Positions 27,221-36,424 of a DNA stretch of 64,000 nucleotides are shown one piece after another. Below the pieces are notes generated by a model. That model saw only the letters and a program-made list of their open reading frames with translations. It did not search any database and was not told where the DNA came from. The stretch spans positions 248,001 to 312,000 of the forward strand of contig JAIQFK010000004.1 in assembly GCA_020073305.1 (NCBI GenBank), given 5' to 3'. Source of the stretch: Terriglobia bacterium. GTDB lineage: Bacteria; Acidobacteriota; Terriglobia; Bryobacterales; Bryobacteraceae. The position numbers were made by a program, and so were the translations under genes. How positions within the stretch are numbered: position 1 is the stretch's first letter; every line of letters begins with the position of its first letter.

Positions 27221-28846
27221 ATGAGTTTCGCCAACGAATTCCAGAAACTGAAGAACCTCCGGGACTCCGGCAGCATCACTCGAGAAGAATACGAGGCGTC
27301 CAGGAACCGCCTCCTCGAGGACTGCGTCCGCCGGATTGAATCGGTACACGATCGAATCCCCAAACCTTCCCCGTCGGGGACCCAGCCGACTAGCGCGCTG
27401 AACCATTCCGGCGAGACCAGTTCCCAGAGCCAGTGTGAACCACACGTGAAGCTCATGGACACAGCGGTGGTAGCCAAGAGATCTTCCACGTACTCCGGGG
27501 AGTTGGATTACAGTCTCGTCAAGCCGCCAGCGCGCCGTGGCCAGGTTTCGAGCGATTCGAGCGCAACGGCTTACGCCTTGGCTAGAAGCGGTGTTGAGAG
27601 CGTCCCATCCGCGCCGAGCCGTGAAGATGGCCAGGGTGCAGTTTCTCCGGAGCCGAGTGTTCCCCGAGTGAAGTTCAGCGCCCCCCCGCCTTTCGCGGAG
27701 CCGGATCGCAGTCAGCAACCCACGCAACCAGTTGAGGCTGTCGTGAACGAGAGTCCCGCGTTTACCCCCGCGCAGCTGCCATCCGTTCGCGTCGCTTATG
27801 AGACGGTGAAGATCAACCCGGCGGCGCTGCTTGTGGATAACAGACAGCACGCCGTGTCCCCGGATGGAAACGCGAAGCGGCCGCCAGTCAGTACTCCGCC
27901 GCCCGCCGAAGATCTGAAGCACAGCGTGCCGACGCCACCCACGCCCTCCGTTGAGGCCTTCCAAGTCGAGAACCGTGTCGCGGACGCTCCGTTCAAGCCC
28001 GCCCCCATCGTGCCGGCGCACCAGCAACCGGATCCGGAAGCTCAAAGCGTACCCGTTAGCTCCCTGTTGCGAAGTGAGCAACTGGGCTACGGTTCGCCGA
28101 AGTCGCCCGCCCACGTCGCCGTCAAGCCTGTTGAGATCATCCCTCCATCTCCGCCCAGCGAACCGGATGCCGAGATCCGGCCTGTGGAAGCCGCCTCCGC
28201 GGCGCAAGCCGAAGAAGTGAGTGACCCCGTCGCGGAAGAGTTTCTCCCCCGGTTTGTCAAGCCCTACGACACGCCCGCCGAAAGAAATCGCTGGGGCCTG
28301 CCCCGTTTCAAACTCGTGACGGGCGCCGTTCAGGATGTCCGCCTCTCGTTGTGCCAAAACAGCGAAGCGTACGCTGCATCCGTCAACGTGGATGGCCAGC
28401 GCATGGAAATCACTTCATCATCGGAAATCCTCATTACCGCGGGCGATCGCGTTAGCCTCGGGGGATACGAGCGCGACGGGCAACTACTCGTCCTCGGCTA
28501 CCGCAACGAAACCAACGGAAGCCATTCGGATTTGAGCCGCTTGCGCAAACGCTACCGGTTCCTCCTCACCGCCGGACGGCTGAGCTTGTTGGTAGGACTG
28601 GCTGTCCTTGCCGCCACCGTGATGCTTTTCCTCCACAAACCGCTGTGGGCCTCCCATCTCGCGCGATGGGGGTATGTGCCCTACGTGCTGTCCGGCTTGG
28701 TGGCCGCCGCTGTTTCCTACGTTGGCCTTGCTCTTTCGTTTGTGGGAAAGTGGGCAAAAGAGTTTCACAGTGCGCTTGCCCCGGCCTCCGGCGACTCGGA
28801 GCCGGCGCCTTATGATCCGTCTTCACTTCCGCTGGCGCTAAACTGA
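27221..28846 (+). CDS. SHOCT-like, proline-rich, C-terminal membrane protein of unknown function
   Basis: 541 residues in three parts. Residues 1-35 (FQKLKNLRDSGSITREEYEA) are a SHOCT-type short helical module, placed here at the N-terminus. Residues about 40-350 are low-complexity, rich in Pro, Ser, Val and Glu and probably disordered. Residues about 360-430 form a compact beta-rich unit (VRLSLCQNSEAYAASVNVDG onward, ending QLLVLGYRNE). Two strong membrane helices (about 450-470 and 483-508) close the protein. The long flexible region could reach across the wall. Likely an operon with the preceding lysozyme-like gene. I do not recognise a named family for the whole. Confidence 0.75.
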   Translation: MSFANEFQKLKNLRDSGSITREEYEASRNRLLEDCVRRIESVHDRIPKPSPSGTQPTSALNHSGETSSQSQCEPHVKLMDTAVVAKRSSTYSGELDYSLVKPPARRGQVSSDSSATAYALARSGVESVPSAPSREDGQGAVSPEPSVPRVKFSAPPPFAEPDRSQQPTQPVEAVVNESPAFTPAQLPSVRVAYETVKINPAALLVDNRQHAVSPDGNAKRPPVSTPPPAEDLKHSVPTPPTPSVEAFQVENRVADAPFKPAPIVPAHQQPDPEAQSVPVSSLLRSEQLGYGSPKSPAHVAVKPVEIIPPSPPSEPDAEIRPVEAASAAQAEEVSDPVAEEFLPRFVKPYDTPAERNRWGLPRFKLVTGAVQDVRLSLCQNSEAYAASVNVDGQRMEITSSSEILITAGDRVSLGGYERDGQLLVLGYRNETNGSHSDLSRLRKRYRFLLTAGRLSLLVGLAVLAATVMLFLHKPLWASHLARWGYVPYVLSGLVAAAVSYVGLALSFVGKWAKEFHSALAPASGDSEPAPYDPSSLPLALN

Positions 28847-28847
28847 A

Positions 28848-29795
28848 TCACGCGTTCCAGGAGCGCAGACCCAGCAACCGCTCTCCCAGTTCGGTCAGCT
28901 CAGCGCGGCCGTAACGTGTCTTTTCCCACTCGCGCGGGTCGCCGGGAAATGCAGGGTCGTTGGGAATCTCGCGCTCGCGCCACGATCGGACTCGCGTCTC
29001 GCACGCTTCCGCGTTTCCTTCGTCTGCCGGGTACATCGAAACGTACTGCGCCATGCGAGCGCGATCGCTGGAAACGTTCGGCTTGATGCCGTGGGCGAGC
29101 AACGTGTTCCAGATCAACAGATCGCCGGCTTTCATGGGCACGAACCGGATTTCGAATCCCGCCGTGTCCGGAAAAAAAGGATGGCGGTCTGGCGGCTGGC
29201 TTGCGCTCCACTCCTCCAGCGTACGGAACAGTTCCGGAACGCACTGGAATCCGCCCACCTCCTCGTCAGTGTCGACGAGCGATAAAACGCCCTGGACGTT
29301 CACAGGCAGGGGACGGGCTGTGGTATCCGCGTCCCAGTGGATGAAGCCCTGGAATGGCCTGGCCCCCCGGTTTGGCGTATTGAGGTTGGCGCGGTCAAGG
29401 GTAACCCACAGATCCTCCCGGTCCCAGATGTCGACGAACGCATTGTAGAGCCGCGGATGCTGCCGGTTGTCCCACAGGTACTGGTGGTTGTAAATCTCGA
29501 CCATGCCGCTGTGATTCAGTTCCGGCATCTGGTGATCGCGAAGCTGCGGCTTGTTCCAGGTCGACGGATCGGCCGGCTCCATTTCCTGAAACTCCCAAAG
29601 CAGCGCCTTGAGACGCTCGATGTTTCCCAGGGGCACTGCATTCGGCACGATCACGTAGCCCCAGGTGGTCCAATGCCGCCAGTCTTCGCCGGACAACACT
29701 CGCAGCGGCAAACGCTTTTGAATATCCTTGAGTGGGACGTCGAAGGCGAGAGACTTATTGCCCTCGTGCGTGTAAGCAAAAGCCGGTTCCGACAT
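28848..29795 (-). CDS. Phytanoyl-CoA dioxygenase (PhyH) family protein
   Basis: 315 residues. Non-haem Fe(II)/2-oxoglutarate oxygenase fold. The HxD pair is in FIHWDADTTARPLP, the distal His in NTLLAHGIKPN, and a 2-oxoglutarate-binding Arg in SSDRARMAQYVSMYP. Many bacterial members hydroxylate small metabolites or amino acids; the substrate is unknown. No signal peptide, so cytosolic. Convergent with the membrane-protein gene (one base between stops) and divergent from the Tat-exported SelA-like operon with 133 bases between starts. Confidence 0.85.
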   Translation of the reverse strand: MSEPAFAYTHEGNKSLAFDVPLKDIQKRLPLRVLSGEDWRHWTTWGYVIVPNAVPLGNIERLKALLWEFQEMEPADPSTWNKPQLRDHQMPELNHSGMVEIYNHQYLWDNRQHPRLYNAFVDIWDREDLWVTLDRANLNTPNRGARPFQGFIHWDADTTARPLPVNVQGVLSLVDTDEEVGGFQCVPELFRTLEEWSASQPPDRHPFFPDTAGFEIRFVPMKAGDLLIWNTLLAHGIKPNVSSDRARMAQYVSMYPADEGNAEACETRVRSWREREIPNDPAFPGDPREWEKTRYGRAELTELGERLLGLRSWNA

Positions 29796-29928
29796 GCCTG
29801 TCCCTCCGTGCGAACTCTCTCGGGGTGTTCGGGGCCAAGTATCGCAAAATCACCAGCGGCGCTGCAAACGCCCACCCCCTCGGTGCCGGACCAGCGCATC
29901 GTGCTCAAAATTGGATTAGAGTGTCCAT

Positions 29929-31200
29929 ATGAACGCATTCCATACACGCCGGGACTTTTTCGGCTGGAGCCGGGGGCTGCTCGCAGCCGCGGGCCTCGCC
30001 AGCCAAACCGCATCGCTCAACGCAGAGCCTGCGCCGCGTCCTTCGGTGGACGAGGGTGAAGACTACTACGACAAACTGGGTGTCACCAAGATCATCAATG
30101 CCGCCGGCACCTACACCATGTTCACGGCTTCAATCATGCCCCCCGCGGTTCAGGCGGCCGTGGCCCGCGCGGCAAAAAGTCCGGTCCGCCTGGCGGAGTT
30201 ACAAACCAAAGCCGGAGAATACCTGGCCAAGCGGCTGCGCTGCGAGGGCGCCGTGGTCACGGCCGGCGCGGCCTCAGCGCTCACGCTAGGCACGGCGGCT
30301 TGCATGACCGTGGCCAACAAATCCGCTCCCCACGACATGCCCACCGACGTCGCCGGGCACAGGAATGAAGTGCTGGTCCAAAAGACGCACCGGTACGGTT
30401 ATGATCATGCCCTGCGCAACTGCGGCATCCGATTTGTCGAGGTAGAAACCCTGGCGGATTACGAAGCGGCCTTTAATGACCGCACCCTCCTGGCGCATTT
30501 CTTCAACGCAGCCGAGCATGGACAGATCAGCCGCGAGGACTGGATTCGCGTGGCGCATAAGCACGGAGTGCCATGTTTCAACGACGCGGCAGCCGATGTT
30601 CCGCCCATTTCGAACCTCTGGAATTACACTCAGATGGGCTTCGACCTGGTTACTTTCTCGGGCGGCAAAGGCATTCGCGGGCCCCAGAACGCCGGCCTCC
30701 TGCTAGGCCGGAAGGACCTCATCGCCGCCGCTGTGATCAACAACAACCCGCACGATGATTGCGTCGGCCGTGGGATGAAAGTGGCCAAGGAGCAGATCGT
30801 GGGCATGGTCGCCGCCGTCGACTGGTTCCTGAGCCAGACCGACGAGGGGATGCAGGCGGAATTCCAGCGGCGGGCCGACCGGATTACCGCACATTTGAAG
30901 GACGTGCCGACCGTGACGTCCCAGACGTTCGTCCCGCCCGTCGCCAACCAGGTACCGCACCTCGTGATTCGTTACGACCAGCAGCGGATTAGGATCTCGC
31001 CGCTCGACGTGGCTGAGCAACTGCGTCGCGACACACCCAGTATTGAGCTGAATCCCGCCACCGGAAGAAACGAAGGGAGTACCGGGTTGCCCTCGGATGC
31101 CGGCACGATCGTGGTGGGCGTTTGGATGCTCGAACCAGGTGAGGATATGATTGTCGCCCGGCGCCTGCGGGAAGTTCTCACGAAAGCGGCCGCCGCGTAA
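29929..31200 (+). CDS. SelA-like PLP-dependent enzyme with Tat signal
   Basis: 423 residues. Twin-arginine leader HTRRDFFGWSRGLLAAAG. The body is a fold-type I PLP enzyme of the selenocysteine-synthase-related branch (D-glucosaminate-6-phosphate ammonia-lyase and similar): IINAAGTYT near the start, DAAADVPP, and the PLP lysine K247 in FSGGKGIRGPQNAG. The Tat route lets it fold with PLP before export. The reaction is unknown; an ammonia-lyase or racemase-type step on an amino sugar or amino acid is an inference. The stop overlaps the next start (TAATG), so it forms an operon with the PIG-L gene. Confidence 0.85.
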   Translation: MNAFHTRRDFFGWSRGLLAAAGLASQTASLNAEPAPRPSVDEGEDYYDKLGVTKIINAAGTYTMFTASIMPPAVQAAVARAAKSPVRLAELQTKAGEYLAKRLRCEGAVVTAGAASALTLGTAACMTVANKSAPHDMPTDVAGHRNEVLVQKTHRYGYDHALRNCGIRFVEVETLADYEAAFNDRTLLAHFFNAAEHGQISREDWIRVAHKHGVPCFNDAAADVPPISNLWNYTQMGFDLVTFSGGKGIRGPQNAGLLLGRKDLIAAAVINNNPHDDCVGRGMKVAKEQIVGMVAAVDWFLSQTDEGMQAEFQRRADRITAHLKDVPTVTSQTFVPPVANQVPHLVIRYDQQRIRISPLDVAEQLRRDTPSIELNPATGRNEGSTGLPSDAGTIVVGVWMLEPGEDMIVARRLREVLTKAAAA

Positions 31201-32129
31201 TGGATCGGCGCAACTTTTTTGGCGGCGCGCTGGCCGGGACTCTCTTGGGCGCGTCTCAAGCCGCCGCCCAGGCGCCGTCCGGCGATGTCGTGATTGAGCG
31301 CGCCGCGTCCGGGACGCCGCACCAGGGAAAAGTGCTCGCGCTCATCACCCCGCACCTCGATGACGGCCCCTTCTTCGCTTGCGGCACAGTGGCCAAGCTC
31401 TTGCGCGAGGGCTACACCGGATATTTCATCCGCACCAGCAACGACGAAAAAGACTCCTACAACCTGAGTCTTGGCGAAACCGTCGCCGCCAACGAGCGCG
31501 ATGGTGCAGAATTTTTGAAAACCACCGGCTTGAAGCAGATGTTCGATCTCGGCTATCGAAATCATCGCATGGATGACGTGGCCCGCACGGAGATTCGCGC
31601 GCGGCTGATCTTCCTGTTTCGGCTGCTGAAGGTCGACACCGTCTTCAGCTACGATCCCTGGGGCCATTACGAAGAGAATCCGGATCACTACATCACGGCT
31701 CAGGCTGTCGAGGCAGCGTGCTGGATGTCAGGCGGCCATCTGGATATGCCCGAGCACTTCGCCGCCGGCTTGAAACCGCAAAGCGTGTCCGAGAAGTACT
31801 ATTTCGCCCGCGGCCCCCAACTTGTGAACCGCGTGGTGGATATCGGCCCGGTATTCGACGCCAAACTGGCTTCGTTGAGGTCTTGCCGGACCATGGTGAC
31901 GCACATGATCCGGGGCTTGAACGCTTCGCTCGCGGATCAGAAACTCCGCGTGCCCGCGCTTTCGGGTGACGAGAGCGCCGCCGTTCACGAGTACGCGAGA
32001 GTGGCTCTGGAAAGCCGCGACCGCACCAACGGCCGGAAGTATGGCCTCGACTATGCTGAGCCGTTCCACTACATCGGTCCCGACCAGTCGCTGGCCGAAT
32101 ACGTTTCACGCAATGCCGTGCCTCTCTAA
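31200..32129 (+). CDS. PIG-L (LmbE) family deacetylase, Tat signal, variant metal motif
   Basis: 309 residues. Tat leader DRRNFFGGALAGTLL. The PIG-L zinc site is present but altered: ALITPHLDDGPFFACG keeps the His and both Asp but replaces the usual Pro (HPDD) and trailing Glu; the third ligand is in ENPDHYITAQ. YDPWGHYEENPDH is the expected active-site stretch. The family removes acetyl from N-acetylglucosaminyl compounds. Its ATG overlaps the upstream stop by one base, and a lectin-like gene follows by 3 bases. The set looks like an exported amino-sugar pathway (inference). Confidence 0.85.
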   Translation: MDRRNFFGGALAGTLLGASQAAAQAPSGDVVIERAASGTPHQGKVLALITPHLDDGPFFACGTVAKLLREGYTGYFIRTSNDEKDSYNLSLGETVAANERDGAEFLKTTGLKQMFDLGYRNHRMDDVARTEIRARLIFLFRLLKVDTVFSYDPWGHYEENPDHYITAQAVEAACWMSGGHLDMPEHFAAGLKPQSVSEKYYFARGPQLVNRVVDIGPVFDAKLASLRSCRTMVTHMIRGLNASLADQKLRVPALSGDESAAVHEYARVALESRDRTNGRKYGLDYAEPFHYIGPDQSLAEYVSRNAVPL

Positions 32130-32132
32130 GCC

Positions 32133-32744
32133 ATGAAACTTATCCCAATCCTCGCCGTCATGATCGCTTCGGCAAGTGCTGCCGACAAACTGAATGTCTT
32201 CGGGAAGGAGTGGAGTGTGCCCGTCGCCGCCGACTGGAAGATCGACCAGCAGGACGGGGGCGAAGTGTTGCACCTCGTCCAGCATAGAGGCCCGGTGCCT
32301 GGGCCCCGCCGCCCCATTCAGTTCGCGCTGGCGGACCTCGTGAACTACGGCACCCTGATCGTTGATGCAGACGTGAAGCCCCTGGGTGGGTCCCTTCTCA
32401 TCGTCTTCGCCTACCGCGATGAAGCGCATTTCGACTACGCTCACCTTTCCGTTGACCCAGGCTCGAAGCAGCCCGTGCACAACGGCATCTTTCACGTCTA
32501 CGGCGGCGAACGTGTCCGGATCAGCTCGGAGCAGGGTCCCGCGGCGTTTGCGGCCAGCGGGCGCTGGTATCATGTCCGGCTCATGCACGACGCGACCACG
32601 GGATCCGTCAGCGTAACGGTAGACGGACGGCGTGTGCCGGCGCTCGACGCTGTGGATCGCAGCCTCGAGCCCGGCAAGTGTGGTTTCGGGTCCTTTGATG
32701 AGACCGGCGAATTCAAGAACGTCAGGATCACCGAAAAACGGTGA
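32133..32744 (+). CDS. Secreted concanavalin-like/DUF1080-like domain protein
   Basis: 203 residues with a signal peptide (MKLIPILAVMIASASAA). All-beta sequence with repeated strand pattern: FALADLVNYGTLIVDADVKP, LLIVFAYRDEAHFDYAHLSV, RWYHVRLMHD, VSVTVDGRRVPALD and a closing KCGFGSFDETGEFKNVRI. This is the jelly-roll pattern of LamG or DUF1080-type glycan-binding or 3-keto-glycoside-hydrolysing domains. No catalytic residues are recognised. Starts 3 bases after the PIG-L stop, third gene of the operon; probably binds or cleaves a saccharide handled by the two enzymes before it. Confidence 0.7.
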   Translation: MKLIPILAVMIASASAADKLNVFGKEWSVPVAADWKIDQQDGGEVLHLVQHRGPVPGPRRPIQFALADLVNYGTLIVDADVKPLGGSLLIVFAYRDEAHFDYAHLSVDPGSKQPVHNGIFHVYGGERVRISSEQGPAAFAASGRWYHVRLMHDATTGSVSVTVDGRRVPALDAVDRSLEPGKCGFGSFDETGEFKNVRITEKR

Positions 32745-32761
32745 CTGGCTTCGCGGCGTTT

Positions 32762-34123
32762 TCAACTCAATTTGTAAGGCGCCCGATATTCGTAATGCAG
32801 TAACTCGTTGGCCCGGTCGTTATTGGTGAACCGCTCGGCCCTGGCATCCCATTCCAGATGGCTCCTGGTCTTGTGGGCGATATTGCCGATCAACGCCGCC
32901 GAGGTGGAAATGTGGCCCGTCAGCACGTCGGCATTGCATTTGCCGCGGCTCTTGATGCAGTCCAGAAAGTTCCGCGCGTGAGACGTTGTATCGTACTCCG
33001 AGGGGCCTTGACGGCTCTTCGGCTCCATGGCCGGTCTTAGAGACGCTCCGACTTCCCGCCCGCCGGCGCGATCGAGTGGGTTGCCGTACCCCTTGCCCCG
33101 GTCGTATCCTTCAGGCGCCTGCGCGTTCTTCTCGGGCACGACCTCCCAGCTCGCATACTTGATGTACATCGTTCCTTTAGTGCCGCGCAGTTCCATCTCC
33201 GCGTCGCGGTTGGTGCCCGGTGCGGCGTTGGCGTTGTATTGTTCGAACACCACCAGCGTCGGCCCGTCAAACTCCCACAACACTTCGAGCGTGTCCGGAA
33301 TCTCGCGATTGTCCTGAATGCCGGCATATTTACCGCCGATGGCGGTGACCGACCGCGGCGAGTCCTGGCCTAAACACCATCGAATAACGTCCACATAGTG
33401 CACGCCAAAGTTGGTGAGTTGGCCTCCGGAGTAATCGTAGAACCAGCGAAAGTTGTAGTAGCTCCGGTTCGGGTTGTACGGCACCTTTGGCGCCGGGCCC
33501 AGCCAGTGATCCCACTCCCACTCGCTGGGAGGCGGTGAGTCCGGTGCTGCTCCGAGGCCGTTGGGCCACTCGTTGCGGATGTGAAAGCACCGCGCCACGC
33601 TGACGTGGCCGATGCCGCCTGAGCGAACGAACTCGGCAGCTTCCCGATACGACTTCCAGGAGCGTCGGTTAGTGCCCACCTGTGTGACGCGCTTGGTGCG
33701 CTCGGCCGTCTCCACCATCTTTCGCCCCTCGACCACTGTGAGGCTCAGGGGCTTCTCCACGTACACATCTTTTCCGGCCTTGCAGGCCTCGATGAACATC
33801 AGGGCATGCCAGTGGTCGGGCGTCGCGATCACCACGGCATCCACGTCCTTGTCTTCGAGCAGTTTTGCGTACTCCTTGTACTTCTTCGGAGTGGCGCGCG
33901 ATTTTTTCACTGCGAAATCCATGTAATCTTCCCGAAGATCGCAAACGGCCACGGTCTGGCAGTCGCCATGCTCCAGGAAGGCGTCGTGTACTTGATCCCC
34001 CCGATTGCCCAGGCCGATATAGCCCACACCCACGCGATCGTTGGCGCCGAGGATGCGAGAGTAGCCGAGCGCCGTAGCCAGACCGGCGCTTCGAGTGAAA
34101 TCCCTGCGAGTCAGTTCTTGCAT
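32762..34123 (-). CDS. Gfo/Idh/MocA-family oxidoreductase, Tat signal
   Basis: 453 residues. Tat leader TRRDFTRSAGLATALG. The NAD(P)-binding Rossmann fold follows (VGVGYIGLGNRGDQ), with AVIATPDHWHA-like and DVYVEKPLSLT blocks (EKP is the family's catalytic motif). The C-terminal domain contains NFGVHYVDVIRW with a conserved His. Members oxidise or epimerise sugars, inositols or glycosides through bound cofactor; exported Tat forms resemble glucose-fructose oxidoreductase and glycosidase-like members. Convergent with the lectin-like gene (17 bases) and divergent from moeA. Confidence 0.9.
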   Translation of the reverse strand: MQELTRRDFTRSAGLATALGYSRILGANDRVGVGYIGLGNRGDQVHDAFLEHGDCQTVAVCDLREDYMDFAVKKSRATPKKYKEYAKLLEDKDVDAVVIATPDHWHALMFIEACKAGKDVYVEKPLSLTVVEGRKMVETAERTKRVTQVGTNRRSWKSYREAAEFVRSGGIGHVSVARCFHIRNEWPNGLGAAPDSPPPSEWEWDHWLGPAPKVPYNPNRSYYNFRWFYDYSGGQLTNFGVHYVDVIRWCLGQDSPRSVTAIGGKYAGIQDNREIPDTLEVLWEFDGPTLVVFEQYNANAAPGTNRDAEMELRGTKGTMYIKYASWEVVPEKNAQAPEGYDRGKGYGNPLDRAGGREVGASLRPAMEPKSRQGPSEYDTTSHARNFLDCIKSRGKCNADVLTGHISTSAALIGNIAHKTRSHLEWDARAERFTNNDRANELLHYEYRAPYKLS

Positions 34124-34263: not shown

Positions 34264-35457
34264 ATGACCTTCGACGAGGCGCGCGCGTGCGTGATCGAGC
34301 GTGTTACCGCCGGGCGTGTGTTGCCGCCGCCCGAAGAGGTCGTGCTCGAAAGCGCGTCGGGCCGCGTGCTCGCGGAGAACATTCTTGCGGATCGCGATCT
34401 TCCGGCGCTGGCGCGCTCGGTGCGCGACGGGTTTGCGGTACGCGCGGTGGATGTGCCGGGAAAATTAGCGGTGATCGGCGAGGTTCGCGCCGGCGACTGC
34501 TTCGAGGGCACGGTGCGACCGGGCGAGGCCGTCGAGATCATGACCGGCGCACCGGTGCCTGCCGGTGCGAACGCGATCATCATGGTGGAGCATGTAACCC
34601 GTGGAGCAGACGGCTCAATCACCACGGACCGCGCGGCCGAACCCGGGCAGTTCATCAATCCTCAAGGATGCGAGGCGCGCGCCGGAGAGGTGCTGTTGAC
34701 TCCAGGCAAGCGGCTGGGGTTCGCCGACATCGCCCTCCTTGCGGCGGTGGGGAAAGTCCCCGTTGCCGTGTGCCCCAAGCCGCGAGTCGCGCTGCTGGCC
34801 ACCGGGGACGAGATCGTGCCCGCTACGGAAAAGCCGCGCGATTTCCAGATTCGCAACTCGAACGTGTACTCGCTGGCCGCACAGGTTGCACGCGCGGGTG
34901 GGATCCCGGTGATCCTGCCTGTGGCAAAGGACGACTCCGAAGACACCATGCGGCGGGTGGAACAGGGGCTGGCGTCGGACCTCCTCCTGCTCTCCGGAGG
35001 CGTGTCCGCCGGCAAATACGATATTGTGGAACGCGTGCTCGCCGATCTCGGTGCAGAGTTTTTCTTCGACCGCGTGTTGATCCAGCCGGGACAGCCGCTG
35101 GTTTTCGGCCGCGTACAAGACAAGTTCTTCTTCGGGCTGCCGGGCAATCCAGCCTCCACCATGGTGACCTTTGAATTGTTTGCTCGAGCCGCGTTGGAGC
35201 TGCTGGGCGGCGAGGCGCGGGCCGAACTTCCACTGATGCTGGCTCCTCTTACGCGGGATTTCCGCCACAAAACCGGGCTGACTCGCTTTCTCCCGGCCAC
35301 GGTCTGCTGGACAGGCGGCGGCCCGCAATTGACCCCCATCGGATGGAGCGGTTCGGGCGATGTGCCGGCGCTTACGCGCGCCAATGCGTTTCTGGTGGCC
35401 GATGCCGATCGCCCGGAATGGAAGGCAGGCGAGTGGATGCGGGTGCTGCTCAAATGA
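34264..35457 (+). CDS. moeA: Molybdopterin molybdenumtransferase MoeA
   Basis: About 397 residues. Inserts molybdate into adenylylated molybdopterin in the cytosol. Features: MTFDEARACVIERV opening, EIMTGAPVPAGANAIIMVEH, ALLATGDEIV, LLSGGVSAGKYDIV (the MPT-binding GGVSxG motif), and FGLPGNPASTMVTFE. The C-terminal beta domain ends RVLLK. A GTG 9 bases before this ATG is an alternative start. The stop overlaps moaC's start by 4 bases (ATGA), making a moeA-moaC-mogA operon. Confidence 0.93.
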   Translation: MTFDEARACVIERVTAGRVLPPPEEVVLESASGRVLAENILADRDLPALARSVRDGFAVRAVDVPGKLAVIGEVRAGDCFEGTVRPGEAVEIMTGAPVPAGANAIIMVEHVTRGADGSITTDRAAEPGQFINPQGCEARAGEVLLTPGKRLGFADIALLAAVGKVPVAVCPKPRVALLATGDEIVPATEKPRDFQIRNSNVYSLAAQVARAGGIPVILPVAKDDSEDTMRRVEQGLASDLLLLSGGVSAGKYDIVERVLADLGAEFFFDRVLIQPGQPLVFGRVQDKFFFGLPGNPASTMVTFELFARAALELLGGEARAELPLMLAPLTRDFRHKTGLTRFLPATVCWTGGGPQLTPIGWSGSGDVPALTRANAFLVADADRPEWKAGEWMRVLLK

Positions 35458-35936
35458 AAAAGCTCTCGCACTACGATTCCGCCGGCAGCCCGCGCATGGT
35501 GGATGTCTCGGCCAAAGCCGAGACTCGCCGTACGGCGCGCGCGCAGGCATTCGTCCGCATCGCACCCGCCGTGCTGGCCAGGCTGCCGGACAATCCCAAG
35601 GGCAACCCTCTCGAAATTGCACGAATTGCCGGTATTGCTGCCGCTAAGAAAACCTCAGATCTGATTCCGCTATGTCATCCGCTGATGCTTTCCCACGCCG
35701 ACGTCGAGGTGCGGGTGGAGACCGAGGGTGTCCGTATTACGGCCAGTGCTGCCACTATCGCGCAGACGGGCGTTGAGATGGAAGCGCTCACTGCGGCCGC
35801 GGTGGCGGCGCTCACCGTTTACGACATGACCAAGGCGCTTGATAAATCCATTTCCATAGAGGATCTTTGTTTGCTCGAAAAGACGGGCGGCAAGAGCGGA
35901 GATTTTCGGCGGGCTCCTGCGAGGAAGTCGCGTTGA
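35454..35936 (+). CDS. moaC: Cyclic pyranopterin monophosphate synthase MoaC
   Basis: 160 residues, typical length. Converts the MoaA product to cyclic pyranopterin monophosphate. All family blocks are present: LSHYDSAGSPRMVDVSAK at the start, AAKKTSDLIPLCHPL, QTGVEMEALTA, and VYDMTKALDKSI with the catalytic Asp/Lys. Its start overlaps moeA and its stop overlaps mogA. The partner radical-SAM gene moaA is not in the window. Confidence 0.95.
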   Translation: MKKLSHYDSAGSPRMVDVSAKAETRRTARAQAFVRIAPAVLARLPDNPKGNPLEIARIAGIAAAKKTSDLIPLCHPLMLSHADVEVRVETEGVRITASAATIAQTGVEMEALTAAAVAALTVYDMTKALDKSISIEDLCLLEKTGGKSGDFRRAPARKSR

Positions 35937-36424
35937 AGCCGGTGCTGGTCATCACGGTGAGTGATTCTGTTTTTGCGGGAAAACGCACGGACGGCTCCGG
36001 GCCCGCGGTAAAAGCACGTTTGGAGCAACTGGGATGGCAGGTAAGCGCCGTGGACGTGGTCCCGGACGATCTGCCGGCGATTAGTAATCGCCTGGCCGCC
36101 GTCGCCGATGCGGACCAGGTGGGCGCGATTTTCACCACGGGGGGCACTGGCGTTGCCGCGCGCGATGTGACTCCGGAAGCGACACGGGCCGTCATTGACC
36201 GCGAGATTCCCGGGATCGGTGAGCGGATGCGCGCCGCGGGCCGCAGCGCCACTCCGTTCGCAACCCTCTCTCGCGCCATCGCCGGCATCCGCGGCCGCGT
36301 GCTCATTGTGAATTTGCCGGGTTCACCCCGAGGCGCGGTCGAGTCGCTGGATGCTATCGTGGAAGTGGTGCCGCACGTGCTTGAGCTTTTGAGCGGCCAA
36401 ACCGAACATCCGGCTGTTAAGTAA
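35933..36424 (+). CDS. mogA: Molybdopterin adenylyltransferase MogA/MoaB
   Basis: 163 residues. Adenylylates molybdopterin to prepare it for MoeA. Signatures: VLVITVSDSVFAGKRTDGSG at the N-terminus and FTTGGTGVAARDVTPEATRAV, with the MPT-binding TGGTG loop; NLPGSPRGAVESL closes the fold. The start is TTG overlapping moaC's TGA (TTGA), chosen because MKPVLVIT aligns with the family start. Third gene of the cofactor operon. The 6-base gap to the following VWFA ORF leaves room for read-through. Confidence 0.92.
   Translation: MKPVLVITVSDSVFAGKRTDGSGPAVKARLEQLGWQVSAVDVVPDDLPAISNRLAAVADADQVGAIFTTGGTGVAARDVTPEATRAVIDREIPGIGERMRAAGRSATPFATLSRAIAGIRGRVLIVNLPGSPRGAVESLDAIVEVVPHVLELLSGQTEHPAVK

Follow-up and report, generated by a model that had tools for sequence, protein, structure and literature searches.

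A stretch of 64,000 nucleotides from a Terriglobia bacterium (Acidobacteriota; Bryobacteraceae; GenBank assembly GCA_020073305.1, contig JAIQFK010000004.1, positions 248,001 to 312,000 of the forward strand; hereafter, the window) carries three closely spaced genes, which encode a pyridoxal phosphate (PLP) protein related to SelA, a PIG-L family protein and a lectin-like protein (Table 1). The first-pass annotation, made from the sequence alone, described three open reading frames (ORFs) joined by a TAATG overlap and a 3-base gap, and all of these are present: the PLP gene stop and the PIG-L gene start have one A in common, and 3 bases separate the PIG-L stop from the lectin-like ATG. Compared with the counterparts in the closest relative (G001; G, C and L numbers are our labels for genomes, contigs and loci), the nonsynonymous and synonymous differences per site (pN/pS) were 0.127/0.618 for the PLP gene, 0.149/0.676 for the PIG-L gene and 0.197/0.598 for the lectin-like gene; pN far below pS in all three fits purifying selection, with pS near saturation. 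With a confidence slightly above even, we propose that the first two proteins carry out the extracytoplasmic N-deacetylation and then the PLP-dependent deamination of 2-amino-2-deoxy-sugar acids.

Table 1. Features of the locus, with positions counted from the first nucleotide of the window.
Feature	Position	Strand	Basis or remark
SelA-like PLP protein gene	29929-31200	+	423 aa ORF
RR (R7, R8) in the Tat-like leader of the PLP protein	29947-29952	+	10/10 closest orthologues
Lys247 codon	30667-30669	+	in motif SGGKGIRGPQ, which aligns with the region of the PLP lysine in DgaE/Cap15
TAATG, overlap of the PLP gene stop and PIG-L gene start	31198-31202	+	sequence; TAA 31198-31200, ATG at 31200
PIG-L gene	31200-32129	+	309 aa ORF; stop TAA 32127-32129
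HLDDG metal/catalytic motif (H52, D54, D55)	31353-31367	+	alignments
His163 codon, second conserved His (NPDH)	31686-31688	+	alignments
Lectin-like gene	32133-32744	+	203 aa ORF, Sec-type; LamG / 3-keto-disaccharide-hydrolase-like; ATG at 32133

The PLP protein matched the Pfam families SelA (28.4 bits) and Aminotran_5 (27.0 bits). Its best NCBIfam match was TIGR01437, the DgaE family, with 157.7 bits against a curated cut-off of 385.3, and the DgaE equivalog model NF047797 scored 121.3 bits against a cut-off of 600; both models matched 32/32 clade members scanned. SelA proper (TIGR00474) was rejected as an assignment, at 29.7 bits versus a cut-off of 267.9. A sequence search of the PDB retrieved DgaE (7lc0, E 1.6e-28) and Cap15 (8t7j, 1e-24), and a family profile built from 32 of the 65 full-length orthologues listed scored 145.6 bits with DgaE and 142.9 bits with Cap15. 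Using an AlphaFold2 model of the protein (pLDDT 84, pTM 0.79), Foldseek placed Cap15 8t7j first (9.1e-29), followed by DgaE (2e-27) and SelA (8e-24). Judged by these sequence and model comparisons, the protein is a fold-I member of the SelA/DgaE/Cap15 branch, outside both curated DgaE sets; its earlier description as SelA-like needs a correction, since SelA proper is a more distant relative than DgaE and Cap15. Lys247 is invariant in the 32 aligned orthologues and in the ten closest ones, and the stretch RxMKxxKE (R281, K284, K287, E288) is conserved in the same 32/32 rows. DgaE, the D-glucosaminate-6-phosphate ammonia-lyase, is a cytoplasmic enzyme that acts on a phosphorylated substrate and yields a 2-keto-3-deoxy-sugar acid. 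The window protein resembles it in its fold, its PLP-lysine context, RxMKxxKE and an NEV..H..Y stretch, and differs in scoring far under the curated cut-offs, in its twin-arginine (RR) leader and in an identity of only ~26% in the structural alignment.

The rank of Cap15 in these searches raises a different chemistry, in which the protein would be an O2- and PLP-dependent monooxygenase-decarboxylase that, in the aerobic periplasm, converts an alpha-amino acid to a carboxamide, much as PvdN forms an amide there. Besides being the closest fold, Cap15 has two essential lysines, K262 and K265 (excerpt of PMC6411801), which by our placement would fit RxMKxxKE. However, this stretch also occurs in DgaE and hence does not discriminate, and amide formation gives no reason for the Rid, kinase and aldolase neighbors described below. 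Cap15 itself is biosynthetic and O2-dependent, and to our knowledge no deacetylase or Rid pairing of it has been described. Our attempt to decide between DgaE and Cap15 chemistry from sequence or fold did not discriminate; taking the neighbors into account, we consider a Cap15-type reaction rather unlikely.

The second gene is, by its sequence, that of a Tat-type PIG-L family N-deacetylase (Tat, twin-arginine translocation). Its product matched PF02585 with 50.9 bits, above the gathering cut-off of 28.2, and its nearest PDB relatives were 3wl4 (E 8.8e-16, named uncharacterised) and the diacetylchitobiose deacetylase 8bgn (1e-13). Its motif reads TPHLDDGPFF, i.e., HLDDG instead of the literal HPDDE, a change to which the first-pass annotation had given weight. 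H52, D54, D55 and H163 are invariant in 33/33 aligned PIG-L rows (31 distinct) and in 8/8 rows of a further alignment, while P and E are the variable places: the fifth residue is E in only one of the 33 rows (L084), C in diacetylchitobiose deacetylase (PHPDDC), and P, C or A in five haloarchaeal PIG-L proteins. By MshB, we take H/D/D/H to be the metal ligands and base, and P and E of HPDDE not to be catalytic. We do not regard HLDDG as a meaningful alteration, because the changed positions lie outside the conserved H/D/D/H; a loss of function was likewise rejected, since H/D/D/H is kept in all the aligned proteins. The archaeal diacetylchitobiose deacetylases (8bgn and others) share the family and an HxDD with a non-E fifth residue, whereas the window protein has an RR leader and other neighbors. 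Runs of several neighboring PIG-L paralogues, 29-40% identical to that of the window, were seen in seven places in related genomes (G057:C2, G028:C11, G025:C145, G035:C52, G073:C290, G072:C100 and G074:C47).

We compared the gene neighborhoods of 81 loci, i.e., the best 80 of 117 loci with PLP orthologues plus the window; 9 of the 80 appear to come from the ten genomes with close orthologues described below. Genes were predicted with an in-house caller and grouped with blastp, and family representatives only were checked in Pfam or NCBIfam. The recurrent families were a deacetylase-type amidohydrolase (40 loci), TonB-type receptors (31), DUF362 (23), Rid (15), PQQ/cytochrome c (14), a family that we call f10 (10), RraA-like (9), PIG-L (8) and RidA/SMP-30 (6), the Rid and RidA/SMP-30 families together occurring in 19 of the 81. 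Taking as a rough expectation the densities in the window's own genome (7 Rid loci), one genome standing for all, the amidohydrolase was found in 40 loci versus 0.68 expected, DUF362 in 23 versus 1.54, Rid in 15 versus 1.19 and PIG-L in 7 versus 0.34. One or more of the families amidohydrolase, Rid, RraA, PIG-L and DUF362 are present in 49/81 loci. The amidohydrolase lies directly upstream of the PLP gene on the same strand in 18 of the 80 placed loci, and the NF006689 cut-off was passed by 3/3 proteins tested; PIG-L lies directly downstream on the same strand in 7/80 and is convergent in one (L173 was not placeable). A SelA-PIG-L-DUF362-f10-amidohydrolase run occurs in L111 and L137, in L134 with an intervening ORF, and partly in L135, L136 and L127. 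A quickly built tree of 85 SelA-like proteins, with contig ends scored as absence, requires no fewer than 5 changes to account for the SelA-PIG-L pairing. Among 20 other PIG-L loci (54-59% identity), SelA is alongside in 3, which by blastp names read SelA-Rid-PIG-L (L201), SelA-Rid-PIG-L plus a second SelA (L207) and f10-amidohydrolase-SelA-PIG-L (L208).

Further features of these neighborhoods deserve mention. Of the two RidA/SMP-30 family members scanned in Pfam, that of L113 (= L044:7858-8889) has SMP-30 only, and L110:4716-6836 (+) encodes a predicted exported fusion of three Rid domains and an SMP-30/gluconolactonase domain. Family f10 (L111:13447-14376 and homologues), a small protein, is conserved between DUF362 and the amidohydrolase, its L108 member lacking a Pfam match; an AlphaFold2 model (pLDDT 80) gave weak Foldseek matches to carbohydrate enzymes, the best being alpha-L-fucosidase (E 1e-8, TMq 0.51). 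Two different SelA-like genes lie close together in L108, L113, L115, L116, L126, L130, L142, L150, L178-L181 and L210. In the scan of 44 of the 61 unclassified same-strand neighbors, most of the families listed (25 of 72) turned up a single time.

The leaders read from the sequence are MNAFHTRRDFFGW... for the PLP protein and MDRRNFFGGALAGTLLGASQAAAQA for the PIG-L protein, both Tat-like, whereas that of the lectin-like protein, MKLIPILAVMIASASA, is Sec-like; of the three proteins first annotated as exported, the Tat-like type is thus limited to the first two. In the ten closest PLP orthologues, R7 and R8 are invariant and the rest of the leader diverges. A strict RR is present in 77 of the 78 N-terminally complete PLP orthologues of the 81 loci (the leaders of L132, L166 and L183 are truncated by the contig end), as it is in 30/31 distinct PIG-L sequences, and the window's genome has one copy of the TatC gene. 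The one complete orthologue without RR ahead of the mature start is L160:9700-10150, and inspection of its other two forward frames by eye revealed no leader. Because the NCBIfam Tat model TIGR01409 matches none of the three window proteins at E 0.1, the Tat call rests on RR conservation and TatC; the same model matched 0/32 aligned orthologues, and another Tat model, TIGR02811, matched 1/32. In the partner families, RR was read in 8/15 Rid, 3/9 RraA-like, 7/8 PIG-L, 14/23 DUF362 and 1/42 amidohydrolase proteins, and a hydrophobic start in 6/15, 7/9, 5/8, 5/23 and 27/42, respectively; these counts are rough, with start codons guessed by the gene caller.

If the RR leaders did not work, as the first-pass annotation had foreseen among possible refutations, the proteins would be cytoplasmic and would act on imported or phosphorylated amino-sugar acids, like DgaE. 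The negative TIGR01409 result, the many partners without an obvious RR and the leaderless haloarchaeal relatives described below (11/11) are in line with such a location. Nevertheless, RR persists in nearly all PLP orthologues despite a diverging leader and in nearly all distinct PIG-L proteins, and leaders are also found on the Rid and RraA partners at some loci and in Granulicella. With the leaders conserved, that refutation is not borne out, and we regard a cytoplasmic location as very unlikely.

Among 101 genomes, the PLP protein had matches at E 1e-20 in 72, its own included, with at least 70% identity in ten; PIG-L matches at E 1e-15 were found in 49, with at least 70% identity in five (G000, G001, G010, G047 and G020), all of them among the ten (hypergeometric ~3e-6, or ~3e-5 without the window's genome, kinship being ignored in both). 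A search of the window's genome gave seven SelA-like genes (E 1e-50 or better) and, for PIG-L, two close genes. In G047, the PIG-L start falls on the last base of an amidohydrolase stop; in G010, the PIG-L gene lies ~3 kb from another SelA paralogue, between TonB-type receptors; and in G001, a single gene separates PIG-L from a polysaccharide deacetylase. Orthologues with 67-73% identity and a Tat leader also occur in metagenome-assembled genomes (MAGs) labelled Alphaproteobacteria, Hyphomicrobiales or Rhizobium (L106, L112, L121, L131, L133, L138, L141 and L173), which may reflect either transfer or mis-binned contigs.

Several observations weigh against the proposed pathway. In addition to the sub-cut-off DgaE scores, the near-equal profile fit to Cap15 with Cap15 first in Foldseek, and the negative Tat models, the export of the partners appears uneven and, judged from their predicted N termini, would take place at no more than some of the loci. 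PIG-L is present in 8/81 loci only, none of amidohydrolase, Rid, RraA, PIG-L and DUF362 in 32/81 (some loci are incomplete, 8 ending less than 1 kb past the SelA gene), and 17 of the 20 other PIG-L loci are without SelA. The PIG-L gene is on another contig in G001 and 3.3 Mb from the orthologue in G010, and a PIG-L search at E 1e-15 found no match in three of the ten genomes with a close SelA (G024, G032 and G060). In the window, the six genes scanned (27221-34123) include no Rid, kinase, lactonase or glycosidase, and its contig, C21, has no Rid match, DUF362 match or good NF006689 match.

The scarcity of linked pairs, together with the expansion of both families in relatives, is also what one would see if the PLP and PIG-L proteins had different substrates and the overlap in the window were a local accident in a genome rich in RR-leader proteins. 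An accident does not, however, sit well with at least five changes on the tree, with the haloarchaeal counterpart (5/11 loci, see below), with the five close PIG-L matches all falling within the ten SelA genomes, or with the overlapping PIG-L and amidohydrolase genes of G047 and the PIG-L gene near a SelA paralogue in G010; we give it a low probability.

The third gene appears to stand apart from the pair. Its product gave sub-threshold matches to LamG and the 3-keto-disaccharide hydrolase family in Pfam and was found in 37/101 genomes. As a third partner it was rejected: it lies beside the PLP gene in 0/80 other loci, and in G001 and G010 it is on a separate contig or far away. The inclusion of this gene in the system, as first annotated, is not upheld; although adjacent, it is probably not part of the system. 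On its other side, an RR-leader Gfo/Idh/MocA protein (32762-34123, - strand) adjoins the three genes; its top NCBIfam match was the BT_2158 glycoside 3-dehydrogenase family (159.6 bits, cut-off 750), and it is perhaps another exported sugar oxidoreductase. The genes at 34264-36424 (+), beside this exported gene group, we take by eye to be MoeA-, MoaC- and MogA-like.

Clues to the substrate come from individual loci. In L152, from a MAG labelled Gemmatimonadetes, SelA, 2-keto-3-deoxy-galactonokinase and a KDPG/KHG aldolase follow one another on the same strand. The paralogues of the window's genome lie in the arrangements SelA-Rid-RraA (L055, contig C14), TonB-DHDPS-SelA-GH2 (L057, C10), in which the GH2 protein has an exo-beta-D-glucosaminidase Ig domain, and SelA-amidohydrolase (C20), and one on C1 has gluconate-2-dehydrogenase subunit 3 and a GMC oxidoreductase nearby on the opposite strand. 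The plasmid pACIX902 of Granulicella tundricola carries, on one strand, genes for a TonB-type protein, RraA, SelA, Rid, a second SelA-like protein, an amidohydrolase, a lactonase family protein and a BBE-domain protein; both SelA-like proteins and Rid have RR leaders, and RraA has a hydrophobic start. The second SelA-like protein has 532 aa, with ~100 extra C-terminal residues.

A plasmid search returned 21 records, one acidobacterial and 20 haloarchaeal, and 11 of the 20 haloarchaeal loci were opened; a few of these, such as L215 and L218, have the same kind of layout and hence do not count as independent. PIG-L is nearby in 5/11 (Natrinema zhouii, Halomontanus rarus, Haladaptatus halobius, Haladaptatus sp. 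YSMS36 and Halorussus aquaticus), and the other neighbors include FAH family proteins (4), Rid (3), D-aminoacylase (3), enolase-superfamily or mannonate dehydratases (4), heparinase II/III (2), GH20 (1) and PL8 (1); L219 and L221 have none of these families. The haloarchaeal SelA-like proteins (29-35% identity) are leaderless in 11/11 loci; therefore, the SelA-PIG-L partnership exists in a cytosolic-looking form. Cytosolic homologues with unrelated roles in the same clade had been named beforehand as a refutation; leaderless relatives do exist, but they lie outside the clade and in a compatible context. Taken together, these neighborhoods are consistent with a pathway in which 2-amino-2-deoxy-sugar acids are deacetylated and deaminated.

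Some of these neighbors could also suggest amino acids. The exported PLP protein would then act on D-amino or N-acyl amino acids, as a D-Ser/D-Thr-type dehydratase or a racemase, the PIG-L or amidohydrolase protein would be an N-acyl-D-amino-acid deacylase, and the sugar genes would be incidental. D-aminoacylase in three of the 11 haloarchaeal loci and, in L106, a penicillin-amidase gene that lies upstream of SelA and on its strand favor this idea, and Rid proteins accompany amino-acid dehydratases too. OngC, the deaminase of the route described next, also handles D-Ser and D-Thr (excerpt of PMC9537276). The 2-keto-3-deoxy-galactonokinase, KDPG aldolase, glucosaminidase, GH20, heparinase, PL8, lactonase and BBE neighbors nevertheless point to sugars, and the PIG-L protein resembles amino-sugar deacetylases; an amino-acid substrate seems to us unlikely.

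In the proposed pathway, the two genes would account for two consecutive steps outside the cytoplasm. The PIG-L protein would strip the N-acetyl group from an amino-sugar compound, likeliest a C1-oxidised one, e.g., N-acetylglucosaminate. The SelA/DgaE-like protein would cross via Tat folded and with PLP bound, and we propose that it is an exported 2-amino-2-deoxy-sugar-acid ammonia-lyase, which would eliminate water and ammonia from the free sugar acid to give, via an enamine/imine, a 2-keto-3-deoxy-sugar acid. Some relatives encode alongside a Rid protein, which would hydrolyse the enamine/imine, and an aldolase of the RraA-like or DHDPS-like type, part of them with leaders. Sugar oxidases and lactonases are found nearby in relatives; in the window's genome, such genes sit at other loci. 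The deacetylation followed by deamination that the first-pass annotation suggested has contextual support for the pair, from the repeated gain or loss of the pairing, its haloarchaeal recurrence and the sugar-acid neighbors, and is abandoned for the lectin-like gene.

That annotation could not name a pathway, but a cytoplasmic analogue can be named. In the ong (oxidative chitin) route of Pseudoalteromonas prydzensis, as given in the excerpts of PMC9537276, OngB deacetylates N-acetylglucosaminate (GlcNAc1A), OngC, a fold type III PLP enzyme, deaminates glucosaminate (GlcN1A) to 2-keto-3-deoxygluconate (KDG), and OngD (RidA) is required for growth; the known amino-sugar routes are described there as beginning with phosphorylation inside the cell. 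The proposed likeness lies in a deacetylase followed by a PLP deaminase, plus a RidA protein, in a non-phosphorylated start and in the conversion of GlcNAc1A to KDG. The differences, within the same excerpts, are that OngC is fold III, that OngB is of the D-aminoacylase type and that both are predicted to be cytoplasmic, whereas the window PLP protein is fold I by Foldseek on its model and both window proteins have export leaders. As to a single cluster of deacetylase, PLP enzyme and RidA, C21 has no Rid match, and Rid is present in relatives. The window pair would work like the ong pair but lacks the fold and predicted location of ong members.

Other known systems share single traits. In Enterococcus, an EF_0837-type amidohydrolase (TIGR03583/NF006689) is presumably paired with a selA_rel (TIGR01437) protein, and an NF006689-type amidohydrolase is the commonest enzyme neighbor here; the system differs in that our PLP protein has an export leader and PIG-L takes the adjacent place in the window. 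The first-pass remark that a PLP enzyme outside the cytosol is uncommon remains fair as to its unusual character, but precedents exist: PvdN and PtaA are PLP enzymes exported folded by Tat for pyoverdine side-chain tailoring and, in the excerpt of PMC6206403, differ from the present protein in not being lyases with deacetylase and Rid partners. Among the matches listed in a literature search largely without subscription papers, none described this cluster, an exported RidA or the export of a DgaE/SelA-like lyase, and a text look-up of the accessible part of the Rid survey by Niehaus 2015 (PMC4433059) did not find the terms sought.

A wider reading, which we put forward tentatively and think more probably wrong than right, is that in Acidobacteriota and some Alphaproteobacteria-labelled records the entire amino-sugar-acid route lies outside the cytoplasm, with a cytoplasmic counterpart in haloarchaea. 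Such a route would comprise oxidation to a lactone, opening of the lactone and N-deacetylation by PIG-L or the amidohydrolase, then elimination of ammonia by the Tat-exported fold-I lyase, imine hydrolysis by Rid and aldol cleavage by an RraA-like or DHDPS-like protein, after which C3 fragments or keto acids, freed of ammonia, would be taken up. If true, it would represent PLP catabolism served by a dedicated exported Rid protein.

The interest of the system lies in its extracytoplasmic place and in its recurrent Rid and deacetylase partners. The deacetylation and subsequent deamination of oxidised amino sugars have so far been described inside cells, and here they would probably take place outside the cytoplasm. 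The amino-sugar nitrogen of chitin, peptidoglycan and glycosaminoglycans is a large pool in soil and sediment; if the proposed pathway is true, deacetylation and ammonia release would occur in the periplasm, where the ammonia would be open to neighbors, and it would become clear why soil acidobacteria have PLP and Rid proteins with RR leaders. The unassigned SelA/DgaE-like branch would thereby gain a testable function, e.g., in isolate KBS 96 (L113) or Granulicella tundricola MP5ACTX9.

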